Shown here one piece after another: positions 4,511 through 25,267 of a stretch of 34,204 nucleotides of DNA. The DNA lies in NCBI GenBank assembly GCA_001657315.1, contig LYSV01000086.1, positions 1-34,204 of the forward strand, read 5' to 3'. Position 1 is the stretch's first letter. Every line of letters begins with the position of its first letter. The notes under the pieces were generated by a model, which worked only from the letters and a program-made list of their open reading frames with translations, was not told the DNA's origin and did no database searches. The DNA comes from Flammeovirgaceae bacterium BBD 1991-12 (GTDB lineage: Bacteria > Bacteroidota > Bacteroidia > Cytophagales > Cyclobacteriaceae). The translations under genes were made by a program, and so were the position numbers.

Positions 4511-4553
4511 ACTTTCTTCGACTGTTTTTATGGGTCTTCAGTTTGGTTTAATA

Positions 4554-5867
4554 TTATTCAGCGAGCTGTGTTTTACTGAAATCAGGATCCAGTTTGCCTT
4601 CTGTAGAAGCTACAACCACAGTGGTTGAAGCATCTCCGGTAATATTGACCATGGTCCTGACCATGTCAAGAATACGTTCCGGCGCCATAATAAGTGCAAT
4701 TCCGGCAGCAGGAATACCAACGGCCTCCAATACGATCACCAACATGACCAGCCCGGCCCCGGGAACACCGGCGGTACCTACAGCGGCCAGTGTGGCAGTA
4801 AGTACTATTGTAATTTGTGAGCTAAGCGACATCTCCAGTCCCATAGCCTGCGCAATGAACACTGCGGAAATTCCCTGGTAAAGGCTGGTGCCGTTCATAT
4901 TGATAGTAGCACCCAGCGGAAGTACGAAGCTGGTGACTTCTTCCGCCACACCCAGATGCTTTTCCACCCGTTCCATAGTGACGGGTAGGGTAGCGGTACT
5001 CGAGCTTGTGCTGAAGCCTAATAGCATGGCAGGTCGTATGGCTTTGAAAAATTCCATATACCTGATCTTAGAGAAATATCTGATCAGAATAGGATAAACA
5101 ATGATCATCATCAGGAACATACCTGTAATGACAGTTACTGTATACCAAAGAAGAGCATACAACAATTCCCATGCCTTGTCCGGATTATCTCCTGCAATTT
5201 CAATGATAAGGGATGCGATCAGTGCAAAAACACCATATGGAGCGATTAACATAATGTATTGCACAATTTTCACAATAACATCGTTGATGCCATTGAAAAA
5301 ATTGAGCACGGTTATCCCCTTTTCCTTAGGCACCTGCAACAGGCCCACGCCGATCAATATGGCAAAGAATACTACCTGGAGCATTTTGCTGTTTTGTGTC
5401 GTAGCGGAAAAGACATTGTCCGGTACCATATCTACCAGAGGCTGCAGGGGTCCCCTCGTTTTCACCTCTTCCGCTGCTGAGATCCGATTCTCTGCATTGG
5501 TATTATACAGGCTCATAAGGTTTTGCCGTGTCTCCTCAGGGAGTTTATGACCGGGTTTCATCACGGCCACCAAAGACAGCCCCACTGTAATGGATATTAT
5601 GGTAGTGATCACAAAAATGCCGAGGGTTTTACCTCCCATTCTTGATAGCTTCGAAACATCGCCAATATTTGCAACGCCTATGATCAATGACGCCAGCACC
5701 AGAGGGACAGCGACCATTTTCAGTGACCGGATGAATATGGTTCCAACAGGTTTAATGAAGTCGATCGTAAAACCTGCGAGAGCTTCAAATTCAAGGCATA
5801 TCATGCCAAAAATCAATCCAAGCGTCATACCGATCAGGATCTGCGTGTGCAGTGCGAGTTTTTTCAT
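4554..5867 (-). CDS. Dicarboxylate/amino acid:cation symporter (DAACS family), copy 2
   Basis: This 437-residue paralogue of the downstream gene has the same DAACS core: FSTSSSTATLPVTMERVE, LPLGATINMNGTSLYQG and APERILDMVRTMVNITGDAS near the C terminus. The loop before the VDMVPDN motif is the normal short length, so the extended loop of copy 1 is an insertion there. Two substrate-site residues differ visibly between copies (NMNGT here against NMDGT in copy 1; ERILDM against DRPLDM), which hints at different substrate or ion preference. The ATG at 5867 is 13 bases from the aroC stop codon, so the two are probably co-transcribed. Family assignment is strong; substrate is unknown. Confidence 0.93.
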   Translation of the reverse strand: MKKLALHTQILIGMTLGLIFGMICLEFEALAGFTIDFIKPVGTIFIRSLKMVAVPLVLASLIIGVANIGDVSKLSRMGGKTLGIFVITTIISITVGLSLVAVMKPGHKLPEETRQNLMSLYNTNAENRISAAEEVKTRGPLQPLVDMVPDNVFSATTQNSKMLQVVFFAILIGVGLLQVPKEKGITVLNFFNGINDVIVKIVQYIMLIAPYGVFALIASLIIEIAGDNPDKAWELLYALLWYTVTVITGMFLMMIIVYPILIRYFSKIRYMEFFKAIRPAMLLGFSTSSSTATLPVTMERVEKHLGVAEEVTSFVLPLGATINMNGTSLYQGISAVFIAQAMGLEMSLSSQITIVLTATLAAVGTAGVPGAGLVMLVIVLEAVGIPAAGIALIMAPERILDMVRTMVNITGDASTTVVVASTEGKLDPDFSKTQLAE

Positions 5868-5880
5868 TTTGTTAACAGGG

Positions 5881-6957
5881 TTATTCAGATTTGCTTACTT
5901 TATTTATCAAATAGTGATCCGCTATTACCAATGCGGCCATAGCTTCTACAATAGGCACGGCCCGCGGTACTACACATGGGTCATGACGTCCCTTACCGCT
6001 AACGGTGACGGGCTCACCCTGCTCATTTACACTTTCCTGATCCTGCATGATCGTGGCTACCGGCTTAAAGGCCACATTGAAGTAGATATCTTCTCCGTTG
6101 GAAATACCCCCCTGAATACCTCCTGAAAAGTTGGTTTTTGTTCTCACCTTACCCTTTTCCTCAAAAAATTCATCATTGTGGGCTGAGCCCCTCATTCGTG
6201 TACCCTCAAAACCACTACCATACTCAAAACCCTTGACAGCATTGATGCTTAACATGGCTTTACCCAGTTCGGCATGGAGCTTATCAAATACCGGTTCTCC
6301 CAGACCCGCCGGCACTCCTGCAGCTATGCAGGTGACCACGCCACCTATGGTGTCCCTGTCCTTTCTCACCTTATCGATCAATTGGATCATTTTTTCTGCG
6401 GTATTGGTATCAGGGCAGCGAACAATATTGTCTTCTATGAGGGAGAGGTCCATTTTTTTGTAGTCCGGAGCTGAGATGTCACCTACCTGGCTTACATAAG
6501 CGGTTATTTCCATCCCACTTTCCTTCAGTAGCTGTTTGGCTATGGCACCGGCTGCCACCCGCGCCGCGGTCTCTCTTGCGGAACTGCGGCCACCGCCACG
6601 GTAGTCACGCACACCATATTTTTCATGATAGGTAAAATCTGCATGAGATGGCCTGAACTTGTCTGCTATATGGGAATAGTCCTTACTTTTTTGATCCTTA
6701 TTGTAAATAACAAGTGAAATGGGCGTTCCTGTGGTTCTGCCTTCAAATACGCCAGATTGTATTTCAAAGCGATCATCCTCTTTTCTTTGTGTTGTGATCC
6801 TCGACTGACCGGGCTTACGCCGGGTAAGCTCGTCCTGGATAAGATCTTCGTCGATCGCAAGGCCTGCCGGACAACCATCTATGATTACCCCTATTGCTGT
6901 TCCGTGGGATTCACCATAGGTAGTGATCCTGAAAAGTCGGCCAAATGAGTTTCCCAA
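5881..6957 (-). CDS. aroC: Chorismate synthase
   Basis: This 358-residue enzyme catalyses the last step of the shikimate pathway, conversion of 5-enolpyruvylshikimate-3-phosphate to chorismate, and requires reduced FMN. It starts [19 protein letters not shown], the standard start and first signature with the conserved histidine. The second signature is seen in [21 protein letters not shown] (residues about 116-136), and the third in [18 protein letters not shown] near residue 325. The length is normal. It is the first gene of a tight minus-strand series with two DAACS symporters 13 and about 43 bases apart. The functional reason for that pairing is not obvious. No regulatory element was recognised upstream. 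Confidence 0.97.
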
Positions 6958-7105
6958 TATTGAAATCTGTTAAAAAGAGGGCTAAGATACTCATATCGGG
7001 GGGTATAGCAAAAATCTTTGTGTCCAACAGTCATCTACCAACTGTCGACCTCGCATTCTTTGCGTATCTGCAGGTCTGCTTCACCGCGGAATGGTAGGTA
7101 TGCTC

Positions 7106-7344
7106 GGGTGCATTTCAAATTGTCGCGTTTGCATTGAACCCGTTAAGTCATATCGCAACGTAGTGAAGATATCTTTGCCACAAAGAAAAGACACGTTACC
7201 TGCTTCGGGGCAAAGATCTCTCCGTTTACACTACGAGATGACTAAAAAAAAGAATGTTGCACTAATTTTCCCATTTTCGATCATGAGCTACATATTAGAA
7301 TAAGTGCTTATCTGATTGAAGACGCGACAATTTGAAAGGCATCC
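7106..7344. repeat. Candidate MITE-like fold-back element
   Basis: The 406 bases between aroC and batD hold no credible gene but do hold a symmetrical element. Its ends are inverted repeats of 22 bp with 20 matches (7106-7127 and 7323-7344), including a perfect 15-bp core, TTTCAAATTGTCGCG at 7113-7127 and its complement at 7323-7337. A 7-bp direct repeat, TATGCTC, lies just outside (7099-7105 and 7347-7353; two extra bases on the right side) and could be a target-site duplication. Inside is a second fold-back: GTAGTG plus ATCTTTGCC (7160-7179) against GGCAAAGAT plus CACTAC (7209-7234). No transposase is present, so mobilisation would have to be in trans. A chance or REP-like structured spacer is the alternative. 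Confidence 0.5.
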
Positions 7345-7363
7345 GTTATGCTCAATGGATACT

Positions 7364-8818
7364 TTACTTTTTCATAAAGATATACGCAGAGGTAAGCAGC
7401 ATTCCGAGGATCAAAATGTTTGCAAGGATCCTTGTCCATTCGAAACTGTCAGAGCTGCCAAGTGTATTATCCTCAAAGGCTATGCGATCATAGAAGGAGC
7501 CAAGGTCAGTGGACTGAATAGACTCGTTCTTTTTACTTTCACCTGTTACTTTCACGCTGATACTGGATTGAAGCGTATCGTATTTTGCTGTTTTTGGGTT
7601 AAAAAATACCCAACTGAAGTAGTCTTTAAGATCGTAGGTGCCAGGCTCCTTGGGTATACCAAAATAGCTGAATGATTTTGATCCTGTTACCCGATTGTTC
7701 CTGCGATTGATCTTTTGAGTGACATTGGGATCATAAAAATCAAAATTATCGCCACCATCCGTTACAGGCTTGTTGACACCAGCTATATTGCCCTCACCGT
7801 AGATGTTGAATTCGTAGGAGAAGCTTTGACCGGTTTGTAACTCCTCCGTACTGGTTCGCTCATCCAGCAGATAGTCTCCCACAGCCACTTGATCTTTCAG
7901 CGGGTGTGGTGGCAATTCCTTAACCTTAACCGTTCTGGGCCTTGAGTAAAACGTTTTAAAGTCCTCCTGTCTGTTCTGACCAAAAAAAGATGGGTTTTTT
8001 GCCACCTTGTATTTGATCATTTCGAGTCCTACGGAAGGAAAGGTGATGTCCTCAGCATTTAGGGGATAAAACACGCCCTGATATACCTTGTACTGTGTAT
8101 ATCGCTTGTTGTTGATCTTTACCGGCTCTCCATTAATATTTTCAATATTGAAGTTTTCCTCCCAGCAGTTTTCCGGTCTTACCTTCTTCAGGATGTTGGA
8201 AAGCTGCTTGCCCAGCTCATAGAATTGCAAAGGAGCCCGGTTGTTATCCGCCACATAAAATGAAAGGGTGGTGGTGAACCCTTCCCCGGCATATACTTCA
8301 TATTTACTGGTAGTAAGTGCGAGGAAGGCGTCCTCCTTTACATCTACAAACTCTGTCTCACCGCGGTCGCTGAATGCATCAAAAGGGTCCCGGTCAAACA
8401 GATTATGGAAGGGATCCCTACGCTGAGAGCGCTGCACTGCCGGCCCTACTTTAATAGCGGTGCCCTGAGATCTTACTGTTTTACCATTTACCTTCATAGC
8501 GAAGGGACGCAATGTGAAAGTGCCCTGCCGTGTAGGGGCATAGGTCATGGTAATGCTCTGTGATGATGATATCTGTCCGTTGATGATCTGGGTGCTGGAT
8601 GATGAGGACGTCCCACGCTTGCGGAAACCCTCGATATCCGGAAAATCATCATACTTCTTTAATCTTTCATTGGAAACAGTGACAGTGATCGTCCATGCCT
8701 GATTCTCACCGATCTCATTGGGCCCCAGCTTGATACTGACCTCCTGCGCTCTGCCCAATGTGGCCATCATTATGAACAGGCCTGTCAACAAATACATTTT
8801 TTTCACAACAGCTTTCAT
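7364..8818 (-). CDS. batD: BatD-like membrane-anchored protein
   Basis: This 484-residue protein resembles BatD of the Bat (Bacteroides aerotolerance) system. It has a signal peptide (residues 1-24, ending GRAQ), then the BatD start with a QAWTITVTVSNE segment, an FPDIEGFRKRGTSSSSS segment and YAPTRQGTFTLRPF, followed by further Ig-like strands. A single C-terminal transmembrane helix (about 462-481) ends in KK, so most of the protein is periplasmic. BatD proteins are commonly longer, carrying a region after this helix; here the gene stops at the helix. The usual batA/B/C neighbours and the MoxR ATPase are absent, so this is an orphan paralogue or a relocated gene. Its molecular function is not established for the family. 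Confidence 0.85.
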   Translation of the reverse strand: MKAVVKKMYLLTGLFIMMATLGRAQEVSIKLGPNEIGENQAWTITVTVSNERLKKYDDFPDIEGFRKRGTSSSSSTQIINGQISSSQSITMTYAPTRQGTFTLRPFAMKVNGKTVRSQGTAIKVGPAVQRSQRRDPFHNLFDRDPFDAFSDRGETEFVDVKEDAFLALTTSKYEVYAGEGFTTTLSFYVADNNRAPLQFYELGKQLSNILKKVRPENCWEENFNIENINGEPVKINNKRYTQYKVYQGVFYPLNAEDITFPSVGLEMIKYKVAKNPSFFGQNRQEDFKTFYSRPRTVKVKELPPHPLKDQVAVGDYLLDERTSTEELQTGQSFSYEFNIYGEGNIAGVNKPVTDGGDNFDFYDPNVTQKINRRNNRVTGSKSFSYFGIPKEPGTYDLKDYFSWVFFNPKTAKYDTLQSSISVKVTGESKKNESIQSTDLGSFYDRIAFEDNTLGSSDSFEWTRILANILILGMLLTSAYIFMKK

Positions 8819-8978
8819 AGAATTAAGGATAATCCTGGACTTTTGCTGAATCTTTCCATACGTTATGAACGTACAAATTTATGGCAATAACCAAATAAAG
8901 CCGTTACAATTTCGTATATTTAACATTATACGGTGTAAGTAAGAGAATCGTTAACCCCATTTCTAATCCACTTATGCT

Positions 8979-9164
8979 ATGCTGGAATACGTGAAAACCA
9001 TCCTTGTAAAAGTAAGTTTCGATAAAAATCTGTTTGAAAAAGAGTTAAGAAAGGCACTGGCATCACTTATAGATGAAGACATCAATGAATTGAGAAGGTG
9101 GTGTTATGCCCAATTCTACGATACCTATCCACGGGTTCTGGAGCGCTGTTTTGTAGCGGCCTAG
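8979..9164 (+). CDS. Conserved small protein, 61 residues, function unknown
   Basis: A small soluble protein with no signal peptide or membrane segment. It is rich in alternating charged residues (EKELRKAL, DEDINELRRW) that fit two or three amphipathic helices, and ends in a Cys-containing tail. From memory it resembles a short conserved Cytophagales protein of unknown role; that recollection could not be checked. It is transcribed divergently from batD. The 160-base gap holds a short dyad at 8859-8873 (TACGTT-3-AACGTA) and another at 8913-8932 (CGTATA with TATACG). An earlier ATG at 8973 is out of frame, which supports the ATG at 8979. It stands alone and is followed by about 148 bases of spacer with nothing recognised. 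Confidence 0.7.
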   Translation: MLEYVKTILVKVSFDKNLFEKELRKALASLIDEDINELRRWCYAQFYDTYPRVLERCFVAA

Positions 9165-12372: not shown

Positions 12373-13428
12373 TCAGGATCGATTAAGCTTCCTCACAATC
12401 AAAAAGTCTAAGGTCAGGCTCAGGAGCACCGAAAAGATCAGTACTGCCGGGAGTAAAACAGCATCTTCCACATTCTTGCCGAACAGGGCAATAGCCACAT
12501 AGACCAGGTTCAAAGTCCCGAGGGAAAGTGCTGTTTGCGAGTGGGTCATTCCCATTCTCATCAGGGCATGATGCATATGGTTTTTATCCGGGGTGAATGG
12601 CGATTGTTTTTTTGATAATCTTAAAATAAAAATACGAAGTGTGTCGAACAGAGGAATGATGATGATGCAAATTCCCGTAGTAACAGAGGCTTGGAATTTG
12701 TAAATATTGTCCTCCGGCAGATTATGGTTGGCATCAATGAATTTGATAGCCATCACTGCAAACAAAAAACCGATAGATAAAGCACCGGTATCCCCCATAA
12801 AAATCTTGGACGGATCCCAGTTAAAGGTCAGGAATGCAATAATTGCACCGGTCATACTCAATGCCAGCAGGCTGGTCCATTCATCTCCTACCAGATAAAA
12901 CCAAATGCCAAAGGTAGTAAGGGCGATGGTGGCTATGGTGCCCGCCAAGCCATCAAGGCCATCAATAAGGTTGAAGGAATTGGTGACAACAATGATGGTG
13001 AATATACTGATCACCTGGATGAGGAAAGGATTCAACTCCTCCACTCCAAAAAGTCCATAAAAAGAATCAAGCTTGATGCCTGCCAGATTCACAATCATGG
13101 CTGCTGCTATCATCTGGGCCAGGAGTTTGTAAAATGGTTTTAGGGGGACCACATCGTCCCGCAAACCGATAAAAAACAAAATAAGAATACCTCCCAAAAT
13201 AAATTTGAACTGTTGAAAGGCCTCAAAGGGCAGCCATACAATAAGTGCAACTACCAGGCCCATGAGAATGCCTATCCCCCCCAAAGAAGGGGTAACTTTT
13301 TTATGGATCTTCCTCCTACCAGGTACGTCCATCATCTTCTTTTTCCGTTTAGAAAATTTGATGATAACAGGGATCACCAGGAAGGTAATGATGAAAGAAG
13401 TAGCTATGGCCAGGAATATTGCGGTCAT
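12373..13428 (-). CDS. WecA/TagO/MraY-family undecaprenyl-phosphate sugar-1-phosphate transferase
   Basis: This 351-residue polytopic membrane enzyme transfers a HexNAc-1-phosphate (typically GlcNAc-1-P) from its UDP-sugar to undecaprenyl phosphate, priming surface-polysaccharide synthesis. Family motifs are complete: DVPGRRKIHKKVTPSLGG near residue 34, the Mg2+-binding Asp91-Asp92, NLIDGLDG (Asp156, Asp159), FMGDTGALSIG (Asp213) and the carbohydrate-recognition histidines in HMHHALMRMG (284-287). About ten hydrophobic helices are seen. The motifs and the locus fit WecA/TagO better than MraY. It sits at the left edge of the polysaccharide locus, divergent from a glycosyltransferase that may add the second sugar. 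Its base composition still resembles the housekeeping region, so it may predate the cluster beside it. The exact sugar is not deducible. Confidence 0.92.
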   Translation of the reverse strand: MTAIFLAIATSFIITFLVIPVIIKFSKRKKKMMDVPGRRKIHKKVTPSLGGIGILMGLVVALIVWLPFEAFQQFKFILGGILILFFIGLRDDVVPLKPFYKLLAQMIAAAMIVNLAGIKLDSFYGLFGVEELNPFLIQVISIFTIIVVTNSFNLIDGLDGLAGTIATIALTTFGIWFYLVGDEWTSLLALSMTGAIIAFLTFNWDPSKIFMGDTGALSIGFLFAVMAIKFIDANHNLPEDNIYKFQASVTTGICIIIIPLFDTLRIFILRLSKKQSPFTPDKNHMHHALMRMGMTHSQTALSLGTLNLVYVAIALFGKNVEDAVLLPAVLIFSVLLSLTLDFLIVRKLNRS

Positions 13429-13533: not shown

Positions 13534-14748
13534 GTGAGAATTCTTTTTTTATCAGATAACTTTCCTCCAGAATACAACGCACCTGCTACTCGTACTTACG
13601 AACACTGTCGAGAATGGGTAAAGTTAGGAGCTAGTGTTACTGTGATCACCTGCTTCCCCAATTTTCCTCAAGGGAAAATTTTCTCCGGCTACAAAAACAG
13701 GCTATATCAAAAAGACTATCTTGATGGTATTGAAGTCATAAGAGTTTGGAGTTTCATCAGTTCGAATAAAGGTTTTTTTAAAAGAACCATAGATTTCTTA
13801 AGCTACGCTTTCATGGCCTTTTTCGTTGGCCTTCGTGTTAAGACTGACGTGATCATAGCCACATCTCCACAATTTTTTACGGCCGTTTCGGGTTTTTGCC
13901 TTTCCGTGTTTAAAAGAAAAAAATGGATCATGGAAGTGCGTGATCTTTGGCCTGAATCTATATCAGCAGTAAATGCCGTAAAAACCAGCATAATCTTAAA
14001 GTGGCTGGAGAAATTAGAACTTTACCTATACAAGAGATCAACTAAAATCATTGTCGTCACTGATGCTTTCAAAGAAAACATTACCGGAAGGGGAATCCCT
14101 GAAGGCAAAATTCATGTAGTGAAAAATGGTGCTAATTTGAGCTTGTTCAAGCCACGGAGTATTAATGATTCCATAAAACAAAAGTTAAACATCAATGGTA
14201 GTTTTATAATTGGATATATAGGAACACATGGACTAGCACATAGTCTGAACTTTATTGTGAGATCCTTAAATAAAATTAATGACGATGGCATTAAATTCCT
14301 TTTCGTCGGTGATGGAGCTGAAAAGGAAAATGTTGTGCAATTGGCGAAAAAGTTAGCGTTAGACAATGTAATCTTCTCGGATCCTATCGAGAAGAATGAA
14401 GTACCTAACTACCTATCGGTTGTGGATGTAGCTTTAGTGCCTCTTAGGAGATCCAATACGTTCAAATCAGTAATTCCATCAAAAATCTTTGAATCAGCCG
14501 CTATGGGAAAGCCTATCTTGTTAGGAGTTGATGGAGAATCAAGACGTATTATAGAAAAGTACAATGCGGGATTATTTTTTGAGCCTGAGAACGAGAATGA
14601 TTTTGTTAAAAAAGTAAAGCAAATTAAGGACAAATCTGCAACTGGTCAATTTGTAAAAGGTTGCGCGGACCTTGCAAGTGATTTTGATAGGAATAAACTC
14701 GCCCAGGAAATGTTTTATGTGATTAAAAACGTTAGAGGATCATCATAA
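13534..14748 (+). CDS. GT4 glycosyltransferase, WbuB-like
   Basis: This 404-residue GT-B enzyme is predicted to extend a lipid-linked saccharide at the inner face of the membrane. The N terminus MRILFLSDNFPPEYNAPATR with a following FPNFPQGKIF segment is the WbuB-type start. The C-terminal half has the nucleotide-sugar motif VIPSKIFESAAMGKPILLG. Translation starts at a GTG (13534), chosen because it begins the conserved first strand; no ATG is available there. It is the only intact plus-strand gene of the polysaccharide locus and is divergent from the WecA-like gene, with about 105 bases between starts. Codon use is visibly more AT-rich than in the genes to the left. It converges on the decayed heparinase copy. 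WbuB-type enzymes often transfer an amino-deoxysugar; the substrate here is unknown. Confidence 0.88.
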   Translation: MRILFLSDNFPPEYNAPATRTYEHCREWVKLGASVTVITCFPNFPQGKIFSGYKNRLYQKDYLDGIEVIRVWSFISSNKGFFKRTIDFLSYAFMAFFVGLRVKTDVIIATSPQFFTAVSGFCLSVFKRKKWIMEVRDLWPESISAVNAVKTSIILKWLEKLELYLYKRSTKIIVVTDAFKENITGRGIPEGKIHVVKNGANLSLFKPRSINDSIKQKLNINGSFIIGYIGTHGLAHSLNFIVRSLNKINDDGIKFLFVGDGAEKENVVQLAKKLALDNVIFSDPIEKNEVPNYLSVVDVALVPLRRSNTFKSVIPSKIFESAAMGKPILLGVDGESRRIIEKYNAGLFFEPENENDFVKKVKQIKDKSATGQFVKGCADLASDFDRNKLAQEMFYVIKNVRGSS

Positions 14749-14756
14749 ATCTATGC

Positions 14757-15765
14757 AGCATGTTAGAGCATTCTGAAAGATAATTTCTACCATAATTGCC
14801 TTTCTTGACTTGTTAAACCTTCACAATAAAGGTATTCTTTTAGTTTAAAGGTTGAATAACCTATAAACCGGATTAGATAGAACCCGCTCTCAACATTTCT
14901 AAATCCATTTTAACTTATACACCTGAATGAAAGTGCAAGTAAGAGATCGCTTGGATTTCTTTACTACCTTCAACTGTGTCTTTTATTATTACCCCAGTGT
15001 CAGTGTAATGCCAAAACCTTTGCATGGTTACACCGAGGCCTTGATACCCAATCATATGCTGCCGTGATGTTACCTGGTTCTTCTGGGCGTTTAACTACCT
15101 TAGTACGTTTACCAACTCTGCCCACATACATTGCTTTGGTTTTTACCATTTTATTGTAATGTATTATGAGATGACGTTGACCTTTCTAGTTGCCTCCGTT
15201 CGTTTTTTCTTACTTTGAAATGCCGGTATCCATAATGAGTGGGTTTTCAATTAAAATAGCAGATAAAATTGAATGTGTCGCTATGCGTATGTCCAGGGAT
15301 ATAACCATCTCCAATTTCACCGACATCAATCACAATTCGTAATTAGACATCCTAATCATGCCATAACCATTCTTGCTAAGACAGCCACGTTTCCATGAAA
15401 TGCCTAATTTTTCGTCGTAACTCAAACAATTGTCGAGAAAAGGACACAAGCCCCTGCATTGAATCATTTACATATGGGATCGTACCATCCTTAAACGTGA
15501 TCATAGCTAGCCATCCTAGCATCATAGAGGCCTTTTCCCTCACAAGTTCTCCTAGTCCTTCATCAATCCAGAAATTATGCTTGACCAAGTTGGTGCAATC
15601 TAACAACCGAAACAAAATAATTTGATGATACATGGGAGAGAGTTCGAAATGACCCCATCATTCAAAACCTTGCTTGGTTATAAAACTTTATCTAATTGAT
15701 GCTTCTCAATGAGATGGAACAGGACTCTAAGCCATCTTTAATTTGTTCAGTACTCTCAATGTGTT
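14757..15765 (-). pseudogene. Decayed heparinase II/III-family gene
   Basis: A ruined second copy of the intact heparinase-like gene at 18526-20097. Segments in several frames match it in order: KDGLESCSISLRSIN (intact KDGLESYPISLRNIN) near 15730, the 258-base open stretch 15376-15633 (MYHQIILFRLLDCTNLVKHN, then MLGWLAMITFKDGTIPYVNDS), IDVGEIGDGYIPGHTHSDTFNF near 15300, QLERSTSSHNT near 15195, and LKEYLYCEGL near 14840. Stop codons and frameshifts separate them. The first about 115 residues are missing, and a further internal deletion removes about residues 147-217. The left end is placed where similarity to the C terminus fades. No product is expected. Confidence 0.85.
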
Positions 15766-16301
15766 CTTATTAACCCCAAACCCATCACAACTACAGTTTC
15801 GCCGAAGGTGGGATTATATAACCGAATTCCCCCGCAGGCCTATGGCTCCTAGGACTGTATAAGCTGCTTCTCGATTTGTCACTTCTTCATAGATTTTAGC
15901 TAATAAATTTTGGTACATTTCCCACTTCAGTATGTGGTCAGCTGGACGCTACGCTACCCTATCACTCATGACGAACTCGGTAACATCTCTACCTAAACCA
16001 ATAACCTTACCTACTTTACAATAACCCAATAAAAGTGGTTGATTTAGTTTATTGAAAACCGCATCAATCATAGGTTTAAAACCATCGGTTTTAATCTTAC
16101 CAAATACCTTCCTGACTTTTTCTGGTTGCTGGTGCGCTTTATCTAAATAGTGTGATTCGCCAACTCAACCAAGATTCTCTCCTTTCCTAAAAACATTAAA
16201 CTTTCCGTAGTTTGTATTAAACATGGATATCTTTTATTGAGCGGAGGGATTTCTTCGATTGGAGGTTCACCCGACTTAAGGTTGTGAACAATTTGCTTCA
16301 T
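15766..16301 (-). pseudogene. Truncated, decayed copy of the two-domain dehydrogenase gene
   Basis: A remnant of the first about 178 residues of the gene intact at 20087-22207. The ATG at 16301 begins MKQIVHNLKSGEPPIEE (intact MRQIVQNLKSGETVLEN). The frame breaks at a TAG near 16145, continues in another frame with DKAHQQPEKVRKVFGKIKTD and NKLNQPLLLGYC, and later with LLAKIYEEVTNREAAYTVLGAIGL and NPTFGETVVVMGLGLI. There it joins heparinase sequence directly, so the whole second half of the dehydrogenase and the start of the heparinase were lost in one deletion near 15765. The order and orientation match the intact pair. Its start overlaps the end of the upstream methyltransferase gene. Confidence 0.85.
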
Positions 16302-17016
16302 TTTTTTTTTGCCAATTTGCAATCAATAAGATTTTATATCTATCTAGGGACAGGCTATTAACAATTCTTTCATAAGCTATGCCGAATAAATAGGTAAAAG
16401 CTGAAATACGAAGATACTCTGGTCGACCTTCTATAAATCTAATCTCTGAAATTGTAAAATTCGTTCCTGATGCCTGCTTTGTTTGTTGACTACAACTGTT
16501 TAATTTATAATACGTGGGGAAAGTATCAACTTCCTGTCTTCCCCTTAATTTATTATAAAATTTATGAAAAGATGTGGGTGTATACCGGGCAATAAGAGAC
16601 ATATAATGATTCCTATTTGGCGTCTTAGATATGAATCTACCACCCACTTTTAAAACCCTATTCACTTCTTTTAGAAAAGGCAATGGTCTCTCAACGTGCT
16701 CCAAGACATTGTCACAAAATACTACATCGAACTTATCATCTTCAAAAAACTTCATATCCTCTCCAAATCCTATAAAACTAAAATCCAAATAGAGGTTATG
16801 TTTAACTCTATTATCCGGGTCCACGCCATAAACCTCCTTGGCAATACCGCGAAAATTCATTTCGCTTATAATACCTGCTCCGGCGCCAATATCCAAAATC
16901 ACAGTATCGGGATTTATGAAGTTCAAAAGGTAATCTCTATATAATTTGTCGTCCCAGTTATTAGAAAAGTGAGGATAAAGGATTCTGTCTATAAGTCGTA
17001 CTATTCTTCCTGCCAT
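16276..17016 (-). CDS. Class I SAM-dependent methyltransferase
   Basis: This 246-residue cytoplasmic methyltransferase has the Rossmann motif I VILDIGAGAGIISEM (about 39-53), GVDPD for the acidic cofactor residue, DVVFCDNVLEHVERPLPFL (motif IV area) and RVLKVGGRFISKTPNRNHYM. The family fits sugar or lipid methylation in polysaccharide loci. The last residues (NEANCSQP) come from translating through ten consecutive As into the start of the decayed dehydrogenase copy. With one more A the frame would end NWQKKK-stop in an ATGA overlap with that gene, so a slip in the homopolymer probably extended the C terminus. The protein core is intact and likely functional. Upstream lies about 490 bases with only a transposase relic. 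Confidence 0.85.
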   Translation of the reverse strand: MAGRIVRLIDRILYPHFSNNWDDKLYRDYLLNFINPDTVILDIGAGAGIISEMNFRGIAKEVYGVDPDNRVKHNLYLDFSFIGFGEDMKFFEDDKFDVVFCDNVLEHVERPLPFLKEVNRVLKVGGRFISKTPNRNHYMSLIARYTPTSFHKFYNKLRGRQEVDTFPTYYKLNSCSQQTKQASGTNFTISEIRFIEGRPEYLRISAFTYLFGIAYERIVNSLSLDRYKILLIANWQKKNEANCSQP

Positions 17017-17302
17017 ACTTTAAACATCGTTAAATGGTATAATTTTAAGCTAATTTAGATCCAAACCATTTGAAAAAGACCGCTTAACCATATCAAAATG
17101 CATTTTGTAGGTCGTCGTTTTAACTTATTAATATTACTCATCATGCCAAATTTAATCAACTTCTTATTTTGCAACAGGTGAAATCAGATTAAAGATTGTT
17201 TGAATTATTAGAAGGTTATTTTCGGTACATCTTGTTCGACCTTATTCAATCATTGTTTCAAAGGATTAAAAATTCTGTATCATATGCTTTTAGAGCATTA
17301 AG

Positions 17303-17507
17303 TTGTATATCGATATTAACCTTTTGAAGTTCGTTGATTTTTTTGATAGCAATGAGACCTATTCAGCCTACTTGGCAAAGTACAAACACACCGGGCAATA
17401 TCAATGTAAAAAGTGCGAGCATGATCACGACTGGAATAAGCAAAAATGGCCAGAGTATACAAACGAGTCCGTAACAGCTAACACTAAGTTGGTCTACGGA
17501 AAGCGTT
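17303..17507 (+). pseudogene. Fragment of an IS1595-like transposase
   Basis: An open stretch on the plus strand encodes LKFVDFFDSNETYSAYLAKY followed by a zinc-ribbon half-motif CKKCEHDHDWNKQKW, and after a degraded part NTKLVYGKRF. This resembles the N-terminal zinc-ribbon and following segment of IS1595-type transposases (typical pattern CxxC...W, then a SKLPYRYW-like motif). The second CxxC is lost and there is no DDE catalytic domain, so it is only a relic. Its frame runs on into the 3' end of the opposing methyltransferase at 17508. The remaining spacer 17017-17302 is AT-rich and shows nothing else; no terminal repeats were found. Confidence 0.5.
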
Positions 17508-18422
17508 TTACATCCTCTTTAGTTTTCCAACTACCGCCATTTTATTTTTAATTTGACTTATTTTTATTAATTTTTTCACAATGGAACTCAAAAAATCCAC
17601 AAAGATACTATCTTTTATCATCTTCTTAAGATAGTAATCCGTTGGGAATGACAATTCATGAAAAATAGAAAAATGCAAAACATCAAAGTTATAATCGAAA
17701 AAAAGAGTTTTGATGTCATTCTTTGAGAAAATCTGTTTGTGGCCGAAAGGATGGTCGGAGTACATGATATTTAAGAAACTGGGGAATTTACCAAAAGACA
17801 GTTTATATGACAATTCTCCAAATTTGTGATAAAAGGTATCCCTGCAAGGTGTATCAATAATCAATAACCCGTCATCTTTCAACAACTTTTGTGAAAAATC
17901 AAAGATTTGCCTGGGAGAATTAACATGCTCAATGACGTCCCAAAGAGTTATGATGTCAAAACTTTTTCTATGGTTATCCATCCAAAATTCAGACTGCAGG
18001 GGATATGGAAATATATTTTTTAGACCATACTCATCCACCGAAAATTTAAGTCTTTTTTCATCCAACTCGATACCGTAACAATCCATTCCCATGGCCTTCA
18101 TTTTTGAAAGGAAAATTCCTCCACCGGAACCAATGTCAAGTATTTTTATCTTATGCTTGCTCTTTGACGCTGGTAGGTACTTATTAACAGTAGAGCAATG
18201 ATTTTCAAATCTCTCGTTGTTATGCTGGAGTTGATTTCTCAAATAGGCACTTAATTCCTGGGGTACATTTATTGATTCTACGTTAAAATTCGTTTTTTTT
18301 AATTCCTCCTTATCCAGGTACCTTGAATAATGAAAAGAGCAGTTTTCGCAAACGAACAAATTGGCATTTACCAATCGGTATGTAATATCCTTATTTTCAT
18401 AAGAGCAGATTTTACACTTCAT
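17508..18422 (-). CDS. Class I SAM-dependent methyltransferase with N-terminal zinc-ribbon-like motif
   Basis: This 304-residue protein begins with a CKIC...CENC pair (Cys3/6 and Cys25/28), a small metal-binding module common in methyltransferases of surface-polysaccharide loci. The Methyltransf_23-type core follows: motif I ILDIGSGGGIFLSKM near residue 94, acidic GIELDE, FDIITLWDVIEHVNSP and LLKDDGLLIIDTPCRD. The C-terminal about 100 residues are helical and rich in Phe and Lys. It probably modifies a sugar nucleotide or lipid-linked glycan; C- or O-methylation cannot be told apart. It is separated from the heparinase gene by about 103 bases. Its 3' end abuts the transposase relic. Confidence 0.87.
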   Translation of the reverse strand: MKCKICSYENKDITYRLVNANLFVCENCSFHYSRYLDKEELKKTNFNVESINVPQELSAYLRNQLQHNNERFENHCSTVNKYLPASKSKHKIKILDIGSGGGIFLSKMKAMGMDCYGIELDEKRLKFSVDEYGLKNIFPYPLQSEFWMDNHRKSFDIITLWDVIEHVNSPRQIFDFSQKLLKDDGLLIIDTPCRDTFYHKFGELSYKLSFGKFPSFLNIMYSDHPFGHKQIFSKNDIKTLFFDYNFDVLHFSIFHELSFPTDYYLKKMIKDSIFVDFLSSIVKKLIKISQIKNKMAVVGKLKRM

Positions 18423-18525: not shown

Positions 18526-20097
18526 TCAATGCAGTGATTTGATTGAACAAACTAAATTGTTAGTGAATTTGATCTCAGTTTTTCTTGCTTTCTTGGTTTT
18601 ATTGAATCCCTCGCAATAATAATAGTCTTTCAAAGATATACTATCATGACCATTGAAACTAATCTCCACGGGAAATACCTGTAATGTATTTGACTTTAAA
18701 ATAGGAGTTAAACCTGGATGGAAATGAAGGAACGCCATGGCCATGAAGCTTTCTTTCATGCCTTGAATTTCATCTATTATCGTAATTTGATCATTTGAAT
18801 ACTTCCATGTTCTACTAACACTGACTCCAATAATTTCGTAGCCATCGTGGCATGATTTAATCTCATTGTCTTTCTCTATTAGCTTTATGATTTTAGCTCT
18901 TTTTCCAACCCTGAAGCCCCCCCACACATCGCTTTGGTTTCTACCATTTACTTCCACGGTGTTATGAGACGAAGTTGACCGCTCTATTTGTCGGCGTTTG
19001 TTCTTTTCATAGGTCGAGATACCCGTATCAACTATTACCGGGGAAGCATTGACATGTAGAACAAAATTGAATGTATCACTATGTGCATGCCCGGGTATAT
19101 AATCAGGACCAATATTACCAACATCAATGAACAACTCATATACAGATCTTCTGACCATACGATAGCCACTTTCCCCCAGTTTGGTCTCTTTCCATGGAAT
19201 TCCCAATCTTTTTGCATACTCAAATAATTCTTGTGAAGAAGGCGCAATTCCTTCAGTCGAATCATTTACCCATGGGATCATGCCATTTTGGAAGGTGATC
19301 ATAGCCAACCAACCCAACATTTTAGAGGCTTTTTGTTCCATGAAATCATATAATCCATTGTCTGGCCAGGAATTATGTTTCATCAGGTTAATACAATCCA
19401 TCAACCTGTACAAAATGACCTGGTGGTACATAGGAGAAAGCTCAAAATGGCATCCATCTTCAAGCACCTGTTCCTCCAGTTCTGTTTTTACTATTTTAGC
19501 AGCCTGTTTTAATAGACTGGTGTCTCTGAAATAATATGCACCGAACAGCAATGAGAAACCATTTTCAATAAGGTGATTACCTAATAGGTGGTATTCAAGA
19601 TTCTTTGTTAGGCGTAAATAGGTTCCATATAGAAATGAATCTATAATATTAGTAGAACCGTACTTAGAAAGAAATTTAATCCAATTAATATTTCTGAGTG
19701 AGATAGGATAGGATTCTAAGCCATCTTTCAGCTTTCCTTTACTCTGTATGTAGTTGTTGATTAAGTTAAACCCTTCTCCTTTGGAGATATCCAATTGATT
19801 TAGAAAATCAAAATAATTCAAATTATAGCACCACAGTTTGCCATATTCAGAAAAGTTCCAATCGATCTGTTTAAAATATTTAGACCGATTCAGAAAAGTA
19901 AATTCGTTTTGTTCATAAAGTTTACCCATGGCAATGGGTTTATAAAAAGTCAATTTTACTGATTGAGGTATATTTTTAGCCTTTAGAAATAGATTTTTTG
20001 TTAGTTTGCTTTTAAACAAATAGAGTCCCCGATAAAAAAATTGTATTGGCTTCAGGTAATATATTGTATTTAATACTCTATTTGTCTTACTCCACAT
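18526..20097 (-). CDS. Heparinase II/III-family protein of the polysaccharide locus
   Basis: This 523-residue protein has an N-terminal alpha/alpha-barrel-like half (about 80-320, including FELSPMYHQVILYRL with Tyr224 and His225) and a C-terminal heparinase II/III beta domain with IPGHAHSDTFNF (336-345), VIVDTGISTYE and RSTSSHNTVEVNG (373-385). In characterised relatives these Tyr and His residues act in beta-elimination at uronic acids. No signal peptide is visible, unlike catabolic heparinases, so it is probably cytoplasmic or membrane-associated and may tailor or edit the lipid-linked polymer. A TTG at 20100 is in frame, but the ATG at 20097 is preferred; it overlaps the dehydrogenase gene by 11 bases. 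A decayed duplicate lies at 14757-15765. Its role in synthesis is inferred from context. Confidence 0.88.
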   Translation of the reverse strand: MWSKTNRVLNTIYYLKPIQFFYRGLYLFKSKLTKNLFLKAKNIPQSVKLTFYKPIAMGKLYEQNEFTFLNRSKYFKQIDWNFSEYGKLWCYNLNYFDFLNQLDISKGEGFNLINNYIQSKGKLKDGLESYPISLRNINWIKFLSKYGSTNIIDSFLYGTYLRLTKNLEYHLLGNHLIENGFSLLFGAYYFRDTSLLKQAAKIVKTELEEQVLEDGCHFELSPMYHQVILYRLMDCINLMKHNSWPDNGLYDFMEQKASKMLGWLAMITFQNGMIPWVNDSTEGIAPSSQELFEYAKRLGIPWKETKLGESGYRMVRRSVYELFIDVGNIGPDYIPGHAHSDTFNFVLHVNASPVIVDTGISTYEKNKRRQIERSTSSHNTVEVNGRNQSDVWGGFRVGKRAKIIKLIEKDNEIKSCHDGYEIIGVSVSRTWKYSNDQITIIDEIQGMKESFMAMAFLHFHPGLTPILKSNTLQVFPVEISFNGHDSISLKDYYYCEGFNKTKKARKTEIKFTNNLVCSIKSLH

Positions 20098-22207
20098 CAA
20101 TCCAAGATTTTCCCTTTAGACTGGAGATGGCAGCTAAGCTTGCCCTAGTGACATTTATTATTTCGGACAAGGGAATTAGCTCTTCTCCGCCGGCTAAGAG
20201 GAACCTGTTATATTGTGCAAATTGATCCTTGTGGCCTTTGTCCTGCCTCGTACTTATATTCTTCACACTTTTAAAACCGTAAAAATAGGTCTTACGGAAG
20301 TTATCAATAATAGCGGTTCTCTCATTTGAGAATACCTCGATTCTTTCTTTTGAATAGGCTTTACTGCCATTGGCAAAATAATTTATTACGCCATTTGAAC
20401 CGTTCTTAAACTGGAGAAGTATTGAAACATTATCTGTATTTTCCTTCGGATTGCGACCTAAGGCGTTCATGCATATAGATGATACTTCGCTGCCGGTGAG
20501 ATACACTAATAAATCGATAAAATGACATGCTTCACCTATAATTCGCCCACCTCCGATTTCCATATCCTGTACCCACATATCCGGAGGGATAAAACCTGCA
20601 TTCATAGTAGCAGAAATATTAATAGGCCCGGGTTGACTCCCCAACGCTTTTTTAATGGCAATAGCGTGGGGAGAAAATCTCCTGTTGAAGCCTACCATTA
20701 TATTCTTCCCATTCTTACCCTGTACCTCAATAACACTTTCCAGCTCAGCTTCATTTAGAACCAAAGGCTTCTCTACAAAAATGTGTTTACCCCTATCCAG
20801 TGCCTCAATCCCCAAGAAGGCGTGGCTATTATGCTTTGTCGTAATAATTACAGAATCCACTTCTGGATCGTCCAATATGAGTTTATAATCTGTAGTGGAA
20901 TTTGCAACCTTGTATTTCTTAGCCAATGTAGTTCCTGATAATCCACCTGCACTAGCTATATATTTGATCTTAGCGCCATCTTTTGTAAGGCTTGGCAATA
21001 TCATAGCGGACGTGAAATTACCAGCACCAATTATGCCAATGACTCCATGAGTTTTCTCAAATGATTGCCGAGCGGTTATTACGGTATGGTTCAGTTCAGC
21101 ACGTTCATCATATGTTATGAGTGTAGCGATGGCCTTACTGGAGGATATATTGTCATAAACAGGGACTACCTGGTCCAATGGGATCTCTTCGCTGATTAGC
21201 GGGATGACATCAAGAGATTTGTTTGCCATAGCCTGGAGTACAGCTTGGAAGTTTCGTTGCTCAGTCCATCTTACATAAGGAAGAGGGTAATCATTACCTT
21301 TTAATTCATACTCATCATCATATCGGCCCGGACCGTAACTACACGATACTTGAAAGGTTAGCTCTTTTTCATAGAAATCAGAACGATTAATATCAAGACC
21401 TATAACACCAACCAAAATAATCCGCCCTCTTTTGCGACTCATATTGGCAGCCTGGGAAATTATATCATTGCTTTTGCTGGAAGCAGTGACTATAACACCA
21501 TCGACTCCAACCTGGCCGGTAAGATTTAAGACGGTTTTTACAGGATCTGAACCATCTGACACGGCAATAGCAGTGATGCCTTTGTTATTGGCTAAAGATA
21601 CTTTGGCTTTATCGAAATCCAAGCCTATCACCTGGCAGCCATTCGCCTTTAAAAGCTCTGCTGTAATGAGCCCTATGAGACCGAGCCCAACTACCACAAT
21701 CGTCTCTCCAAAGGTAGGGTTACATAATCGTATGCCTTGTAAGCCAATAGCGCCAATCACAGTAAAAGCTGCTTCACTATCATGTACATTATCGGGAATT
21801 TTGGCGACAAGATTCGTGGGAACATTCACAAATTCTGCATGAGGCCCGTTAGAAACCACCCGGTCACCCACTGAATAGCCTGTCACTCCTGCACCTGTAG
21901 CCATTACTTCGCCCACATTGCAATACCCTAAGGGCATGGGCTGATTGAGTTTATTGACAACAGCATCAATAGTAGGTTTCACACCATCCGTCTTCACCTT
22001 ATCCAGTACTTGCTTCACTTTTTCTGGCTGTTGGCGTGCTTTATCAAGAAAATTAGCCTTACCAAAGGTGACAAGCATTCGCTCAGTTCCTAACGAAATA
22101 AGGCTTTTGGTAGTTTTTATTAAAACATGTCCAGCTTTCGCTTTAGGGGCTGGAACGTTTTCTAACACCGTTTCCCCCGATTTAAGGTTTTGAACAATTT
22201 GTCTCAC
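20087..22207 (-). CDS. Two-domain oxidoreductase (MDR dehydrogenase + Gfo/Idh/MocA)
   Basis: This 706-residue fusion has two NAD(P)-binding units. Residues 1-about 365 form a medium-chain dehydrogenase with the glycine-rich VVVGLGLIGL (171-180). The usual catalytic zinc Cys/His ligands are not evident at the N terminus. Residues about 388-706 form a Gfo/Idh/MocA-type sugar dehydrogenase with GIIGAGNFTSAMI (391-403) and the conserved EKP (479-481) followed by GFNRRFSP. It could catalyse a coupled oxidation-reduction on a sugar or sugar nucleotide. It starts at GTG (22207), which begins the conserved MRQIVQNLKSGE, and overlaps the heparinase start by 11 bases; an asparagine-synthase-like gene lies 9 bases upstream. 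This fusion recurs beside heparinase genes in polysaccharide loci. The substrate is unknown. Confidence 0.9.
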   Translation of the reverse strand: MRQIVQNLKSGETVLENVPAPKAKAGHVLIKTTKSLISLGTERMLVTFGKANFLDKARQQPEKVKQVLDKVKTDGVKPTIDAVVNKLNQPMPLGYCNVGEVMATGAGVTGYSVGDRVVSNGPHAEFVNVPTNLVAKIPDNVHDSEAAFTVIGAIGLQGIRLCNPTFGETIVVVGLGLIGLITAELLKANGCQVIGLDFDKAKVSLANNKGITAIAVSDGSDPVKTVLNLTGQVGVDGVIVTASSKSNDIISQAANMSRKRGRIILVGVIGLDINRSDFYEKELTFQVSCSYGPGRYDDEYELKGNDYPLPYVRWTEQRNFQAVLQAMANKSLDVIPLISEEIPLDQVVPVYDNISSSKAIATLITYDERAELNHTVITARQSFEKTHGVIGIIGAGNFTSAMILPSLTKDGAKIKYIASAGGLSGTTLAKKYKVANSTTDYKLILDDPEVDSVIITTKHNSHAFLGIEALDRGKHIFVEKPLVLNEAELESVIEVQGKNGKNIMVGFNRRFSPHAIAIKKALGSQPGPINISATMNAGFIPPDMWVQDMEIGGGRIIGEACHFIDLLVYLTGSEVSSICMNALGRNPKENTDNVSILLQFKNGSNGVINYFANGSKAYSKERIEVFSNERTAIIDNFRKTYFYGFKSVKNISTRQDKGHKDQFAQYNRFLLAGGEELIPLSEIINVTRASLAAISSLKGKSWIDVE

Positions 22208-22216
22208 TAATAGTAT

Positions 22217-24109
22217 CTATGGTTTGTTATTGTGAAATTGAGAAATCCAGCTATCTATTGCTAGTAAAGCCCAAATGGTATAAGAAGCATCAATTTCCCC
22301 GGCATCATTCCGTTTAACCAGGTCATGAACATTCTTAAAGTCAAAAAGATCGTGTTTTCTAAGTCGTTGTATTGAGAGCCTTTCGTTTATAAGTGGTTTT
22401 AAATCATGAGATATCCACTTTCTTACAGGGGCACCAAAACCAGCCTTGCTCCTATAGATCACATCATCCGGGAGATACCTTTCAGCCAGCTTTTTGAGAA
22501 TATATTTTGTTTCAGTTCCTTTTAATTTTAGTCCAGGGGGGATGGAATAACTGAAATCCACCAGGTCATTATCTAAATAAGGTACTCGTATTTCTACCCC
22601 TTCCGCCATACCCATTTTGTCAGTATAATTAAAATTATGATCTACAAGAAATGAGTTCATTTCGAGGTACAAAAGTTTATTCAATTCGTTTCTTTCATCG
22701 GGAATATCTTTTAGCGTTTCTCGAAAGTAGTTAAAAGGATCTTGTTCTTTGAGAGATATCCTGATATCACGCTGGAACAGTTTTAAAACCTCTTGCCATT
22801 CCAGCCATTCGAATAAGGCAAGTATTTGGTCTTCATTTTTATACTGGATTATTGAAATTAGTTTCTGAATTCTTCTATAATTCGGATTATTACTGTCGAA
22901 TTTCTGGCTGATGCTTATTAGCACTGATCTCAAGACGTTAGGTATGTGTTTAAGGTATTTGGTTAATCTCAATGCCTTATGTCTCGTATACCCGGAAAAC
23001 ACATCATCTCCCCCGACACCTCCAATCAGTACTTTATACCCCATCTCCTTTGCCCTTCGTGATATGTTTAGCACGTTTAAAGGAGCTGAATCTGCCTGGG
23101 GCTCATCCAGATGCCATATCATTTTATCAAAATCCCTAACTATATCTATATCAGCCTTGATGACCTCCAAATGTACGTCTAAATGAGAGGCGACATTTCG
23201 TGCATAATAGAGGTCATTGCTCAAACCTTCTGATTTACTGAGTTCTTCGGTTTCAATGGTAAAACATTGAAGTTTTTGACTGGAGTTTATTTTTTTTGCT
23301 ATCGCAACCAGCAGGCTGCTATCAAGGCCACCCGAAAGAAAAAATCCTACAGGTGTATCAGAAAGTAGCTGCCTTTTTACCGCTGTGGTAAGGTGAATTT
23401 CTAACGCATTTACTAAATCAATCTCACTCTTATCAGAATAGTCAGAAACAAATCCAGGGTAGAAGAATCTTGTGGTCTTATGTGATGAAGGGTTAGTGAC
23501 ATCGATTTCCATGAACCTTCCCGGCAACAATTTTTTTATTTCCTGAAAAGGGGTTTTGGTGCCGGGAGCCCATAAAAATCTCAAATAATCCGCCAGAGCC
23601 TCGGCATTGAGGCTCAATTGAGACGGGTAAGGCGCTGTTAACGCTTTTAATTCTGAAGAAAATCCGAATGTTTCTTCTGATTGAAAATAGTAAAAAGGCT
23701 TTACCCCAAATCTATCACGTGCTACCACTAGCTTTTCAGCCATTTTATCATAAATAGCGAATACGAAGATGCCGTTTAATTCAGCAATTATATCGGTTCC
23801 ATAGACCTGATAACCCTGGAGAATAACTTCTGTATCTGAGGTAGATTTAAAATTGCGACCCTGAACCTCAAGTTGCTTGCGGATTTCCCATTGATTATAT
23901 ATTTCACCATTAAAAATTATGATATAATTTTCATCATCGGAGATAAAAGGTTGATGAGCATTTTGAGAAAGATCCTGAATTGAGAGCCGGACATGCCCGA
24001 GATTTACCTTTGCGTCACTATAAATTCCTTGGTCATCGGGGCCTCTATGGCTGATCAGGTCTAATCTTAATTGATCAGGAATATTAATAAATCCAAGTAT
24101 ACCACACAT
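22217..24109 (-). CDS. asnB: Glutamine-hydrolysing asparagine synthase-like amidotransferase
   Basis: This 630-residue protein has an N-terminal class II glutaminase with nucleophile Cys2 (MCGILGF), Arg41, FNGE (66-69) and SDTE (91-94), all key residues present. The C-terminal ATP-pyrophosphatase domain has the P-loop SGGLDSS (259-265) and GGVGGDDVFSGYTRHKAL. It is complete and should be active. In a polysaccharide locus such proteins more often amidate a sugar carboxylate, as proposed for WbpS in Pseudomonas O-antigen loci, than make asparagine. The pairing with a two-domain dehydrogenase and a heparinase-like protein supports a uronic-acid-containing polymer. It lies 9 bases upstream of the dehydrogenase and about 57 bases downstream of a glycosyltransferase, so one transcript is likely. 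The symbol reflects the family, not a proven role. Confidence 0.88.
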   Translation of the reverse strand: MCGILGFINIPDQLRLDLISHRGPDDQGIYSDAKVNLGHVRLSIQDLSQNAHQPFISDDENYIIIFNGEIYNQWEIRKQLEVQGRNFKSTSDTEVILQGYQVYGTDIIAELNGIFVFAIYDKMAEKLVVARDRFGVKPFYYFQSEETFGFSSELKALTAPYPSQLSLNAEALADYLRFLWAPGTKTPFQEIKKLLPGRFMEIDVTNPSSHKTTRFFYPGFVSDYSDKSEIDLVNALEIHLTTAVKRQLLSDTPVGFFLSGGLDSSLLVAIAKKINSSQKLQCFTIETEELSKSEGLSNDLYYARNVASHLDVHLEVIKADIDIVRDFDKMIWHLDEPQADSAPLNVLNISRRAKEMGYKVLIGGVGGDDVFSGYTRHKALRLTKYLKHIPNVLRSVLISISQKFDSNNPNYRRIQKLISIIQYKNEDQILALFEWLEWQEVLKLFQRDIRISLKEQDPFNYFRETLKDIPDERNELNKLLYLEMNSFLVDHNFNYTDKMGMAEGVEIRVPYLDNDLVDFSYSIPPGLKLKGTETKYILKKLAERYLPDDVIYRSKAGFGAPVRKWISHDLKPLINERLSIQRLRKHDLFDFKNVHDLVKRNDAGEIDASYTIWALLAIDSWISQFHNNKP

Positions 24110-24166: not shown

Positions 24167-25267
24167 TCAGGCTTCCAGGATCTTCCTGAAGTTCGTCAGA
24201 GCTTTGGCTGTGGTGTAGCACTCTAACACGGTCTTTTTGGCATTTTTTGCCAATTTCAATCTAAGGTCTGGCTGTTCTATTAAAGTGGAAATATTAGTGG
24301 CCAATGTAACTTCATCTTCTGATGGAACGATCAGTCCATTCTGTCCAGAAGTTATGATATCCGGTATAGCACCGACATCTGTAGCTATCACCGGCAATTC
24401 TGAGATCATAGCTTCTAGTAAAGCATTTGGAAATCCTTCACGGTGTGAAGGTAAAACGTAAATATCTGCTTTTCTTAAGACACACAGTTTCATTTCAGGA
24501 TTTGCCCAACCTTCTAATTTCACATAGTCAGATAATTTTCTTTGGACAATTAATTGTGCTGCTTGTTCGGCTAAACTTCCATCTCCATAAATACCTACAT
24601 GAATATTCTTATTGGCCGGAGATAGTTGACTTATGGCATTTATGAAATCTATTATCCCCTTAAATGATTCTAACCACCCTATATAGATGATATTTATCGT
24701 GTCACTATGGAGTTTTGTTTCGTAAGATAAGGTGTTGTCAGAATATTGAGATTCGTCAATCCAATTGGGCTGAACAATAAATTTTTCTGGATTCTTATTA
24801 TTCACCAATTGAAGAAATTCTTTTTTCCAGATCTTACTCTGGCAGATCACTATGTCACATTTAGTAAAAACGTGCTTAATGAATCTCATTAAACCACCAC
24901 CCTTTTCAATATCATCTTTTAACATACCGGACCTTGGGGCTAATATCACTTCTTTTCCTACCATCTTAGCCATTAGTGCCATGAGCCCCTTCTCCATAAA
25001 ACTTGTTCCATCTGCAGTAAATATGAGAGCCTTGTCTATATTAGAAAAGACTAAATGATATGCGAATCGAAATAACCTGAAGAGTACGTATGGAAGCCTT
25101 TGAATTATGGGTGGTGGAGGTACTGATATAGAAGTGGTATCTATCAGGATAAAATTAATAGTTTGATTAACTGATGAGTTAATTAATGTTTTACATGCAA
25201 ACATTTGGCCGCCTGTACTACCATCAGGAGCGTCCTTAAAAGATCCTACGAATAAAACTCTCTTCAT
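24167..25267 (-). CDS. GT4 glycosyltransferase
   Basis: This 366-residue GT-B retaining glycosyltransferase begins MKRVLFVGSFKDAPDGSTGG, where the glycine-rich loop binds phosphate or acceptor. It continues with EVILAPRSGML and IYIGWLESFKGIIDF, and carries the donor-binding motif SHREGFPNALLEAMISELPV (E-x7-E) near residue 275. No membrane helix is predicted; it should act on the lipid-linked acceptor at the cytoplasmic face. Its ATG overlaps the stop of the WD40 gene in an ATGA (4 bases), so the two are translationally coupled. Sugar and linkage are unknown. Confidence 0.9.
   Translation of the reverse strand: MKRVLFVGSFKDAPDGSTGGQMFACKTLINSSVNQTINFILIDTTSISVPPPPIIQRLPYVLFRLFRFAYHLVFSNIDKALIFTADGTSFMEKGLMALMAKMVGKEVILAPRSGMLKDDIEKGGGLMRFIKHVFTKCDIVICQSKIWKKEFLQLVNNKNPEKFIVQPNWIDESQYSDNTLSYETKLHSDTINIIYIGWLESFKGIIDFINAISQLSPANKNIHVGIYGDGSLAEQAAQLIVQRKLSDYVKLEGWANPEMKLCVLRKADIYVLPSHREGFPNALLEAMISELPVIATDVGAIPDIITSGQNGLIVPSEDEVTLATNISTLIEQPDLRLKLAKNAKKTVLECYTTAKALTNFRKILEA

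Follow-up and report, generated by a model that had tools for sequence, protein, structure and literature searches.

A 1.5-kb stretch of the window (the whole 34,204-nucleotide piece of DNA analysed, which is one entire contig, LYSV01000086.1, of the Flammeovirgaceae bacterium BBD 1991-12 genome) is the remnant of a dehydrogenase-heparinase gene pair. The stretch is homologous to a pair that stands intact 2-6 kb away, it carries two large deletions and broken reading frames, and it corresponds in position to an intact pair in a related bacterium. We consider it likely (probability of about 0.7) that the remnant is a decayed resident pair and that a related second pair came to lie 2-6 kb from it. 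The features on which this rests are the following.

12373..13428, minus strand: WecA-like gene (PF00953, profile match), the anchor of the locus
13534..14748, plus strand: GT4 glycosyltransferase gene (PF00534/PF13439), intact, putatively resident, tail to tail with the remnant
14743..14745, minus strand: stop codon of the old heparinase gene, probably still preserved (by eye), within a 6-base overlap with the end of the glycosyltransferase gene
14752..15671, minus strand: heparinase remnant, codons 211-520, after deletion 2 (frameshift-aware alignment)
15674..15763, minus strand: heparinase remnant, codons 117-146 (tblastn E 2e-6; 17/30 codons identical; 1 stop)
15764..15767, minus strand: junction of deletion 1 (between the ends of two alignment blocks; the exact breakpoint is beyond resolution)
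15768..16301, minus strand: dehydrogenase remnant (bi-domain oxidoreductase), codons 1-178 (frameshift-aware alignment)
16276..17016, minus strand: methyltransferase gene immediately upstream of the remnant (PF08241; ORF and sequence)
17508-18422: methyltransferase gene directly downstream of the intact pair (profile and ORF list)
18526..20100, minus strand: intact heparinase II/III-like gene (PF07940, E 6.5e-40; also PF16889)
20087..22207, minus strand: intact dehydrogenase gene with zinc-dehydrogenase and Gfo/Idh/MocA domains (PF00107, PF01408)
22217..24109, minus strand: asparagine-synthase-like gene (PF00733), next to the intact pair on its upstream side

Frameshift-aware alignment reads the minus strand from 16301 to 14752 as dehydrogenase codons 1-178, then heparinase codons 117-146 and then codons 211-520, in the gene order and on the strand of the intact pair at 18526-22207. 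The alignment scores were 480 for the dehydrogenase and 774 for the heparinase, as compared with 28-41 and 33-47 for eight shuffled proteins per gene aligned in the same way, which rules out chance similarity and bears out the proposal of an earlier note, made from the sequence alone, that the same two genes lie here in the same order and orientation. The best pieces found in the remnant by tblastn with the intact proteins had E values of 2e-60 (heparinase) and 9e-36 (dehydrogenase), and at the DNA level the remnant has two matches to the intact pair, one 575 bases long (68%, E 4e-49) and the other 263 bases long (70%, E 6e-27). When the remnant was searched as DNA against the 282 contigs (8.6 Mb) of the genome it comes from, the matches at E 0.001 other than itself were three pieces of the intact pair.

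The remnant carries 13 frameshifts, 4 stops and 2 large deletions in total. Three-frame protein-DNA alignment of the dehydrogenase part with the intact copy gave 108/175 identical codons, 4 frameshifts and 1 stop, the latter in an inserted codon; the heparinase block of codons 211-520 is identical to the intact copy in 166/302 codons and has 9 frameshifts and 2 stops. At deletion 1, the dehydrogenase breaks off after codon 178 and the heparinase sets in at about codon 117; assuming that the resident pair was as long as the intact one, this deletion took out approximately 1.9 kb (dehydrogenase codons 179-706 and heparinase codons 1-116). Deletion 2 removed about heparinase codons 147-210 (approximately 0.19 kb). 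Both lie where the earlier note had placed them, one near 15765 and the other inside the heparinase. If the stop seen by eye at 14745-14743 is genuine, the remnant ends about 14 bases past position 14757, the end proposed previously. Its protein identity to any intact allele compared is at most 68%, and this divergence together with the load of lesions appears far beyond what sequencing error would produce. With homology that is colinear yet interrupted by stops, frameshifts and deletions, the stretch qualifies as a pseudogene.

An intact counterpart stands at the same place in Fulvivirga imtechensis AK7, a member of the window genome's genus. There (record NZ_AMZN01000046.1), an intact dehydrogenase gene (2982-5102) and heparinase gene (5092-6672) are followed by an opposite-strand GT4 gene (6675-7940), which ends 2 bases after the heparinase, and next by a PF00953 WecA-like gene (8000-9055). 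The GT4 proteins of the window and of F. imtechensis are 73% identical and the WecA-like proteins 70%. The F. imtechensis pair occupies the position of the remnant, tail to tail with an inverted GT4 gene and then the WecA-like gene, and the two cassettes agree in genes, order, GT4 orientation and WecA-like neighbour; they differ in that the pair is intact in F. imtechensis and reduced to a 1.5-kb remnant in the window. The upstream neighbours also differ, being a Gfo/Idh-type gene in F. imtechensis and a methyltransferase gene in the window.

The value of the inverted GT4 gene as a marker was seen from 21 heparinase loci outside the window, six of them named loci and 15 chosen from 43 other genomes with matches in an order-level search that covered 390 genomes (one named locus, L017, is also among the 43, as G309 by coordinates). 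A GT4 match stands beside the heparinase gene in 20 of the 21 (L016-L021 and L111-L125, with L021 as the sole exception), and in most of these loci a dehydrogenase gene lies upstream. The GT4 gene runs in the same direction as the heparinase gene in 19 loci and in the opposite direction only in F. imtechensis (L016). Fourteen of the 20 GT4 matches are weak (21-26% identity) and of a general kind, and among the six with more than 50% identity the orientation is split 5 to 1. The inverted GT4 gene is uncommon, and the remnant shares it with F. imtechensis; by position, this makes the remnant the resident. On this evidence the remnant probably represents the original pair of the locus and the intact one (18526-22207) the extra copy, which reverses the "second copy" label that the remnant had been given. 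In contrast to 20 of the 21 other loci, no glycosyltransferase gene follows immediately on the intact pair. At one of the loci, L118 (G342:C1, 5661-7813), the dehydrogenase matches as two adjacent pieces (47% and 62%) and is perhaps split or broken.

Within the genus, a full-length heparinase was found in 2 of 15 genomes, the window's own and that of F. imtechensis (G002), and a full dehydrogenase in the same two. In the 14 other genomes of the genus, the WecA-like protein has best matches of 42-91% identity; the nearest relatives by this protein, G012 (91%) and G013 (85%), have neither the pair nor a glycosyltransferase better than 30%. Stretches beside the WecA-like gene were compared for 8 of the 13 remaining genomes (L074-L081), and no dehydrogenase or heparinase match was seen in them at E 1, the only matches being two general glycosyltransferase matches in L074. 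Seven of the eight stretches are informative, as the contig of G001 (L078) ends approximately 0.8 kb past the WecA-like gene on the relevant side. The five genomes outside this comparison are G003, G005, G008, G010 and G011, four of which have a best WecA-like match of 42-47%; the one in G005 is at the end of a contig. The arrangement of the remnant was found in only one other species. The comparison of this locus in close relatives, which the earlier note had proposed, gives an intact counterpart at the same place in F. imtechensis and no trace of the pair in the eight other stretches. For the suggestion that the module is repeatedly gained and replaced here, these results are indirect support only; they bear out a turnover of the locus content, but not a repeated gain of the module.

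Remnant and intact copy differ at about 0.6 of their third codon positions, close to saturation. The copies are old and divergent, as had been claimed, and a recent tandem duplication is ruled out. With synonymous sites saturated, the comparison of the copies yields neither an age nor a pairwise dN/dS. At second positions, with Shiella as outgroup, 22 changes are specific to the dehydrogenase remnant versus 2 to F. imtechensis (p 4e-5), and four other outgroups gave 18-21 versus 2-5, so that in this part loss of constraint is clear against F. imtechensis with all five outgroups. Against the intact copy the count was 22 to 7 (p 0.008; significant with 4/5 outgroups). Such fast change at second positions is as expected for a gene free of constraint. 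For the heparinase remnant we counted 31 own changes to 15 in the intact copy (p 0.026 with Shiella; significant with 3/5 outgroups), and against F. imtechensis there was no significant second-position excess with any of the five outgroups.

The two halves of the remnant disagree in their relationships. In the dehydrogenase tree (23 rows, 175 columns) the remnant groups with F. imtechensis (96/89), with which it shares 119/175 codons, and a tree made to join it with the intact copy is 3.9 log units worse (AU p 0.095). In the heparinase tree (22 rows, 329 columns) it groups with the intact copy (100/97), and forcing it to F. imtechensis costs 8.3 (AU p 0.043). L118 was left out of both trees, its dehydrogenase being matched in two pieces; for L018, L021, L116 and L121 the stretch examined contained no complete dehydrogenase match, L126-L130 were taken as dehydrogenase-only loci, and L030 (G025) was used in the codon alignment and is absent from the trees. 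Where intact copy and F. imtechensis differ at first or second positions, the dehydrogenase remnant matches the intact copy at 9 and F. imtechensis at 27, and the heparinase remnant at 115 and 58, respectively; Fisher's test for the contrast between halves gives p 9e-6, with the reservation that sites within a codon are not independent. With Shiella added as a fourth row, the informative first and second sites joining the remnant to intact copy, F. imtechensis and Shiella number 2, 7 and 4 for the dehydrogenase and 33, 14 and 14 for the heparinase. Third positions, in the same order, show no clear preference (10, 11 and 8; 19, 23 and 19). The longer branch is that of the intact copy for the dehydrogenase and that of F. 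imtechensis for the heparinase; the remnant thus joins the shorter branch in each tree, which is the opposite of the pull expected from long-branch attraction. Taken literally, these results describe a mosaic, but one history that places the remnant beside the intact copy in both genes is compatible with the data at the 5% level.

The disagreement is a hint that alleles may have been mixed before decay. It is conceivable, if somewhat doubtful, that the remnant is a mosaic, with the dehydrogenase half stemming from an F. imtechensis-type allele and the heparinase half from one resembling the intact copy, recombined before the pair decayed. If so, polysaccharide-cassette alleles would recombine as a pool at this locus, whose fixed end would be the glycosyltransferase gene.

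The intact dehydrogenase and its F. imtechensis counterpart are sisters (98/93), which makes the intact dehydrogenase one of Fulvivirga type. An asparagine-synthase-like gene lies directly upstream of the dehydrogenase gene also in L112, L126 and L129. One clade of these three with the intact dehydrogenase, a grouping made after the synteny had been seen, was rejected (p 1e-6). Among the matches listed in the 14 other genus genomes, the asparagine-synthase-like protein is at most 36% identical, and in G006 there was no match at E 1e-60. This neighbour points to no donor in our sample.

We propose that the ancestral cassette consisted of the dehydrogenase, heparinase and GT4 genes beside the WecA-like gene, an arrangement that F. 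imtechensis keeps intact. A second, related pair, which has an asparagine-synthase-like gene upstream, would have come to stand nearby, either acquired from a related bacterium or produced by an old duplication; the intact pair would be the later one. The resident pair presumably became redundant and would have accumulated the deletions (approximately 1.9 kb and 0.19 kb), frameshifts and stops, and the resident GT4 gene would have been retained and may now work with the newer pair.

Displacement is favoured because an intact positional counterpart stands at the same spot in F. imtechensis. Several points speak against the proposed sequence of events: a simple story of resident and newcomer does not predict that the heparinase remnant groups with the intact copy; no outside donor is visible, the intact dehydrogenase being sister to F. 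imtechensis; the heparinase remnant shows no significant second-position excess over F. imtechensis; and the arrangement was seen in just one other species, with pair and glycosyltransferase both lacking in G012 and G013. The sister relationship of the intact dehydrogenase is compatible with transfer from a relative as well as with old duplication. The main rival, which we regard as unlikely but well worth weighing, is an old duplication in the window's own lineage after its split from F. imtechensis, with the remnant copy decaying and the other moving upstream beside the asparagine-synthase-like gene. It would account for the sister grouping of the two heparinases (100/97), the same grouping of the dehydrogenases is compatible with the data (p 0.095), and the intact dehydrogenase is of Fulvivirga type. 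Yet the dehydrogenase remnant prefers F. imtechensis (96/89; 27 vs. 9 first- and second-position sites), near-saturated third positions exclude any recent tandem copy, two methyltransferase genes separate the copies and their upstream neighbours differ. That the similarity is due to chance, or that an intact pair is broken only by sequencing error, is extremely improbable, given scores at least 10 times those of shuffled proteins and two deletions, 13 frameshifts and 4 stops lying between intact neighbours. Of the earlier choice of an old duplication or displacement over a recent copy, the exclusion of the recent copy stands and the F. imtechensis synteny favours displacement; an outside origin of the intact pair is not sustained by its dehydrogenase.

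The methyltransferase gene at 16276..17016 did not serve as a marker of origin, as a search of 57 other genomes gave no relative at E 1e-20. It ends with a stretch that includes ten consecutive A and spans the old dehydrogenase start (16276-16312, by eye); the gene's frame reaches 26 bases into the remnant, and a slip in the A run may have changed the C-terminus of its product (by eye). Between the two methyltransferase genes, 17017-17507 (approximately 490 bases) holds no ORF of note. A further decayed gene was considered there and rejected, as six-frame reading gave one 47-residue hydrophobic stretch on the minus strand with no Pfam match. The gap may be the border of older and newer parts of the cluster.

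By its gene content this is a surface-polysaccharide locus; profile matches among the neighbours include asparagine synthase, glycosyltransferases, a Wzy_C protein and methyltransferases. Within the cluster we also observed a WD40-repeat beta-propeller protein gene (PF00400, E 1e-31; 25264-26196, minus strand) that overlaps the ends of its neighbours. The intact heparinase belongs to family PF07940 (137.6 bits; curated cut-off 24), falls below the NCBIfam heparin-sulfate lyase cut-offs (32 bits vs. 600-700) and shows weak sequence similarity to heparinase III chains of solved structure, for example 5jmd (E 2e-4). It matches the PF07940 heparinase II/III-like proteins but sits in a biosynthesis-type cluster. 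No obvious signal peptide was seen by eye, which suggests polysaccharide making rather than digesting. To judge from their families and neighbours, the likeliest task of the enzymes is to make or modify a uronic-acid-type sugar in an exported polysaccharide. The three-gene order of bi-domain oxidoreductase, heparinase-like protein and GT4 recurs in Bacteroidota polysaccharide loci, and a narrow search of open-licence literature found no published description of it.

Gene remnants at capsule and O-antigen clusters are a general phenomenon, and turnover with leftover pseudogenes is well known there. The remnant described here is a pseudogene fossil of such polysaccharide-locus turnover, ordinary in kind, with the cassette and the possible mosaic as modest extras. 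It offers a placed example of how these loci change: resident genes die in place, a related pair is intact nearby and one shared enzyme is kept. As in capsule and O-antigen clusters, broken leftovers of a former cluster lie beside the successor, near a conserved anchor gene; the difference is that here one locus holds the same two genes as divergent alleles, one pair left over and the other working.
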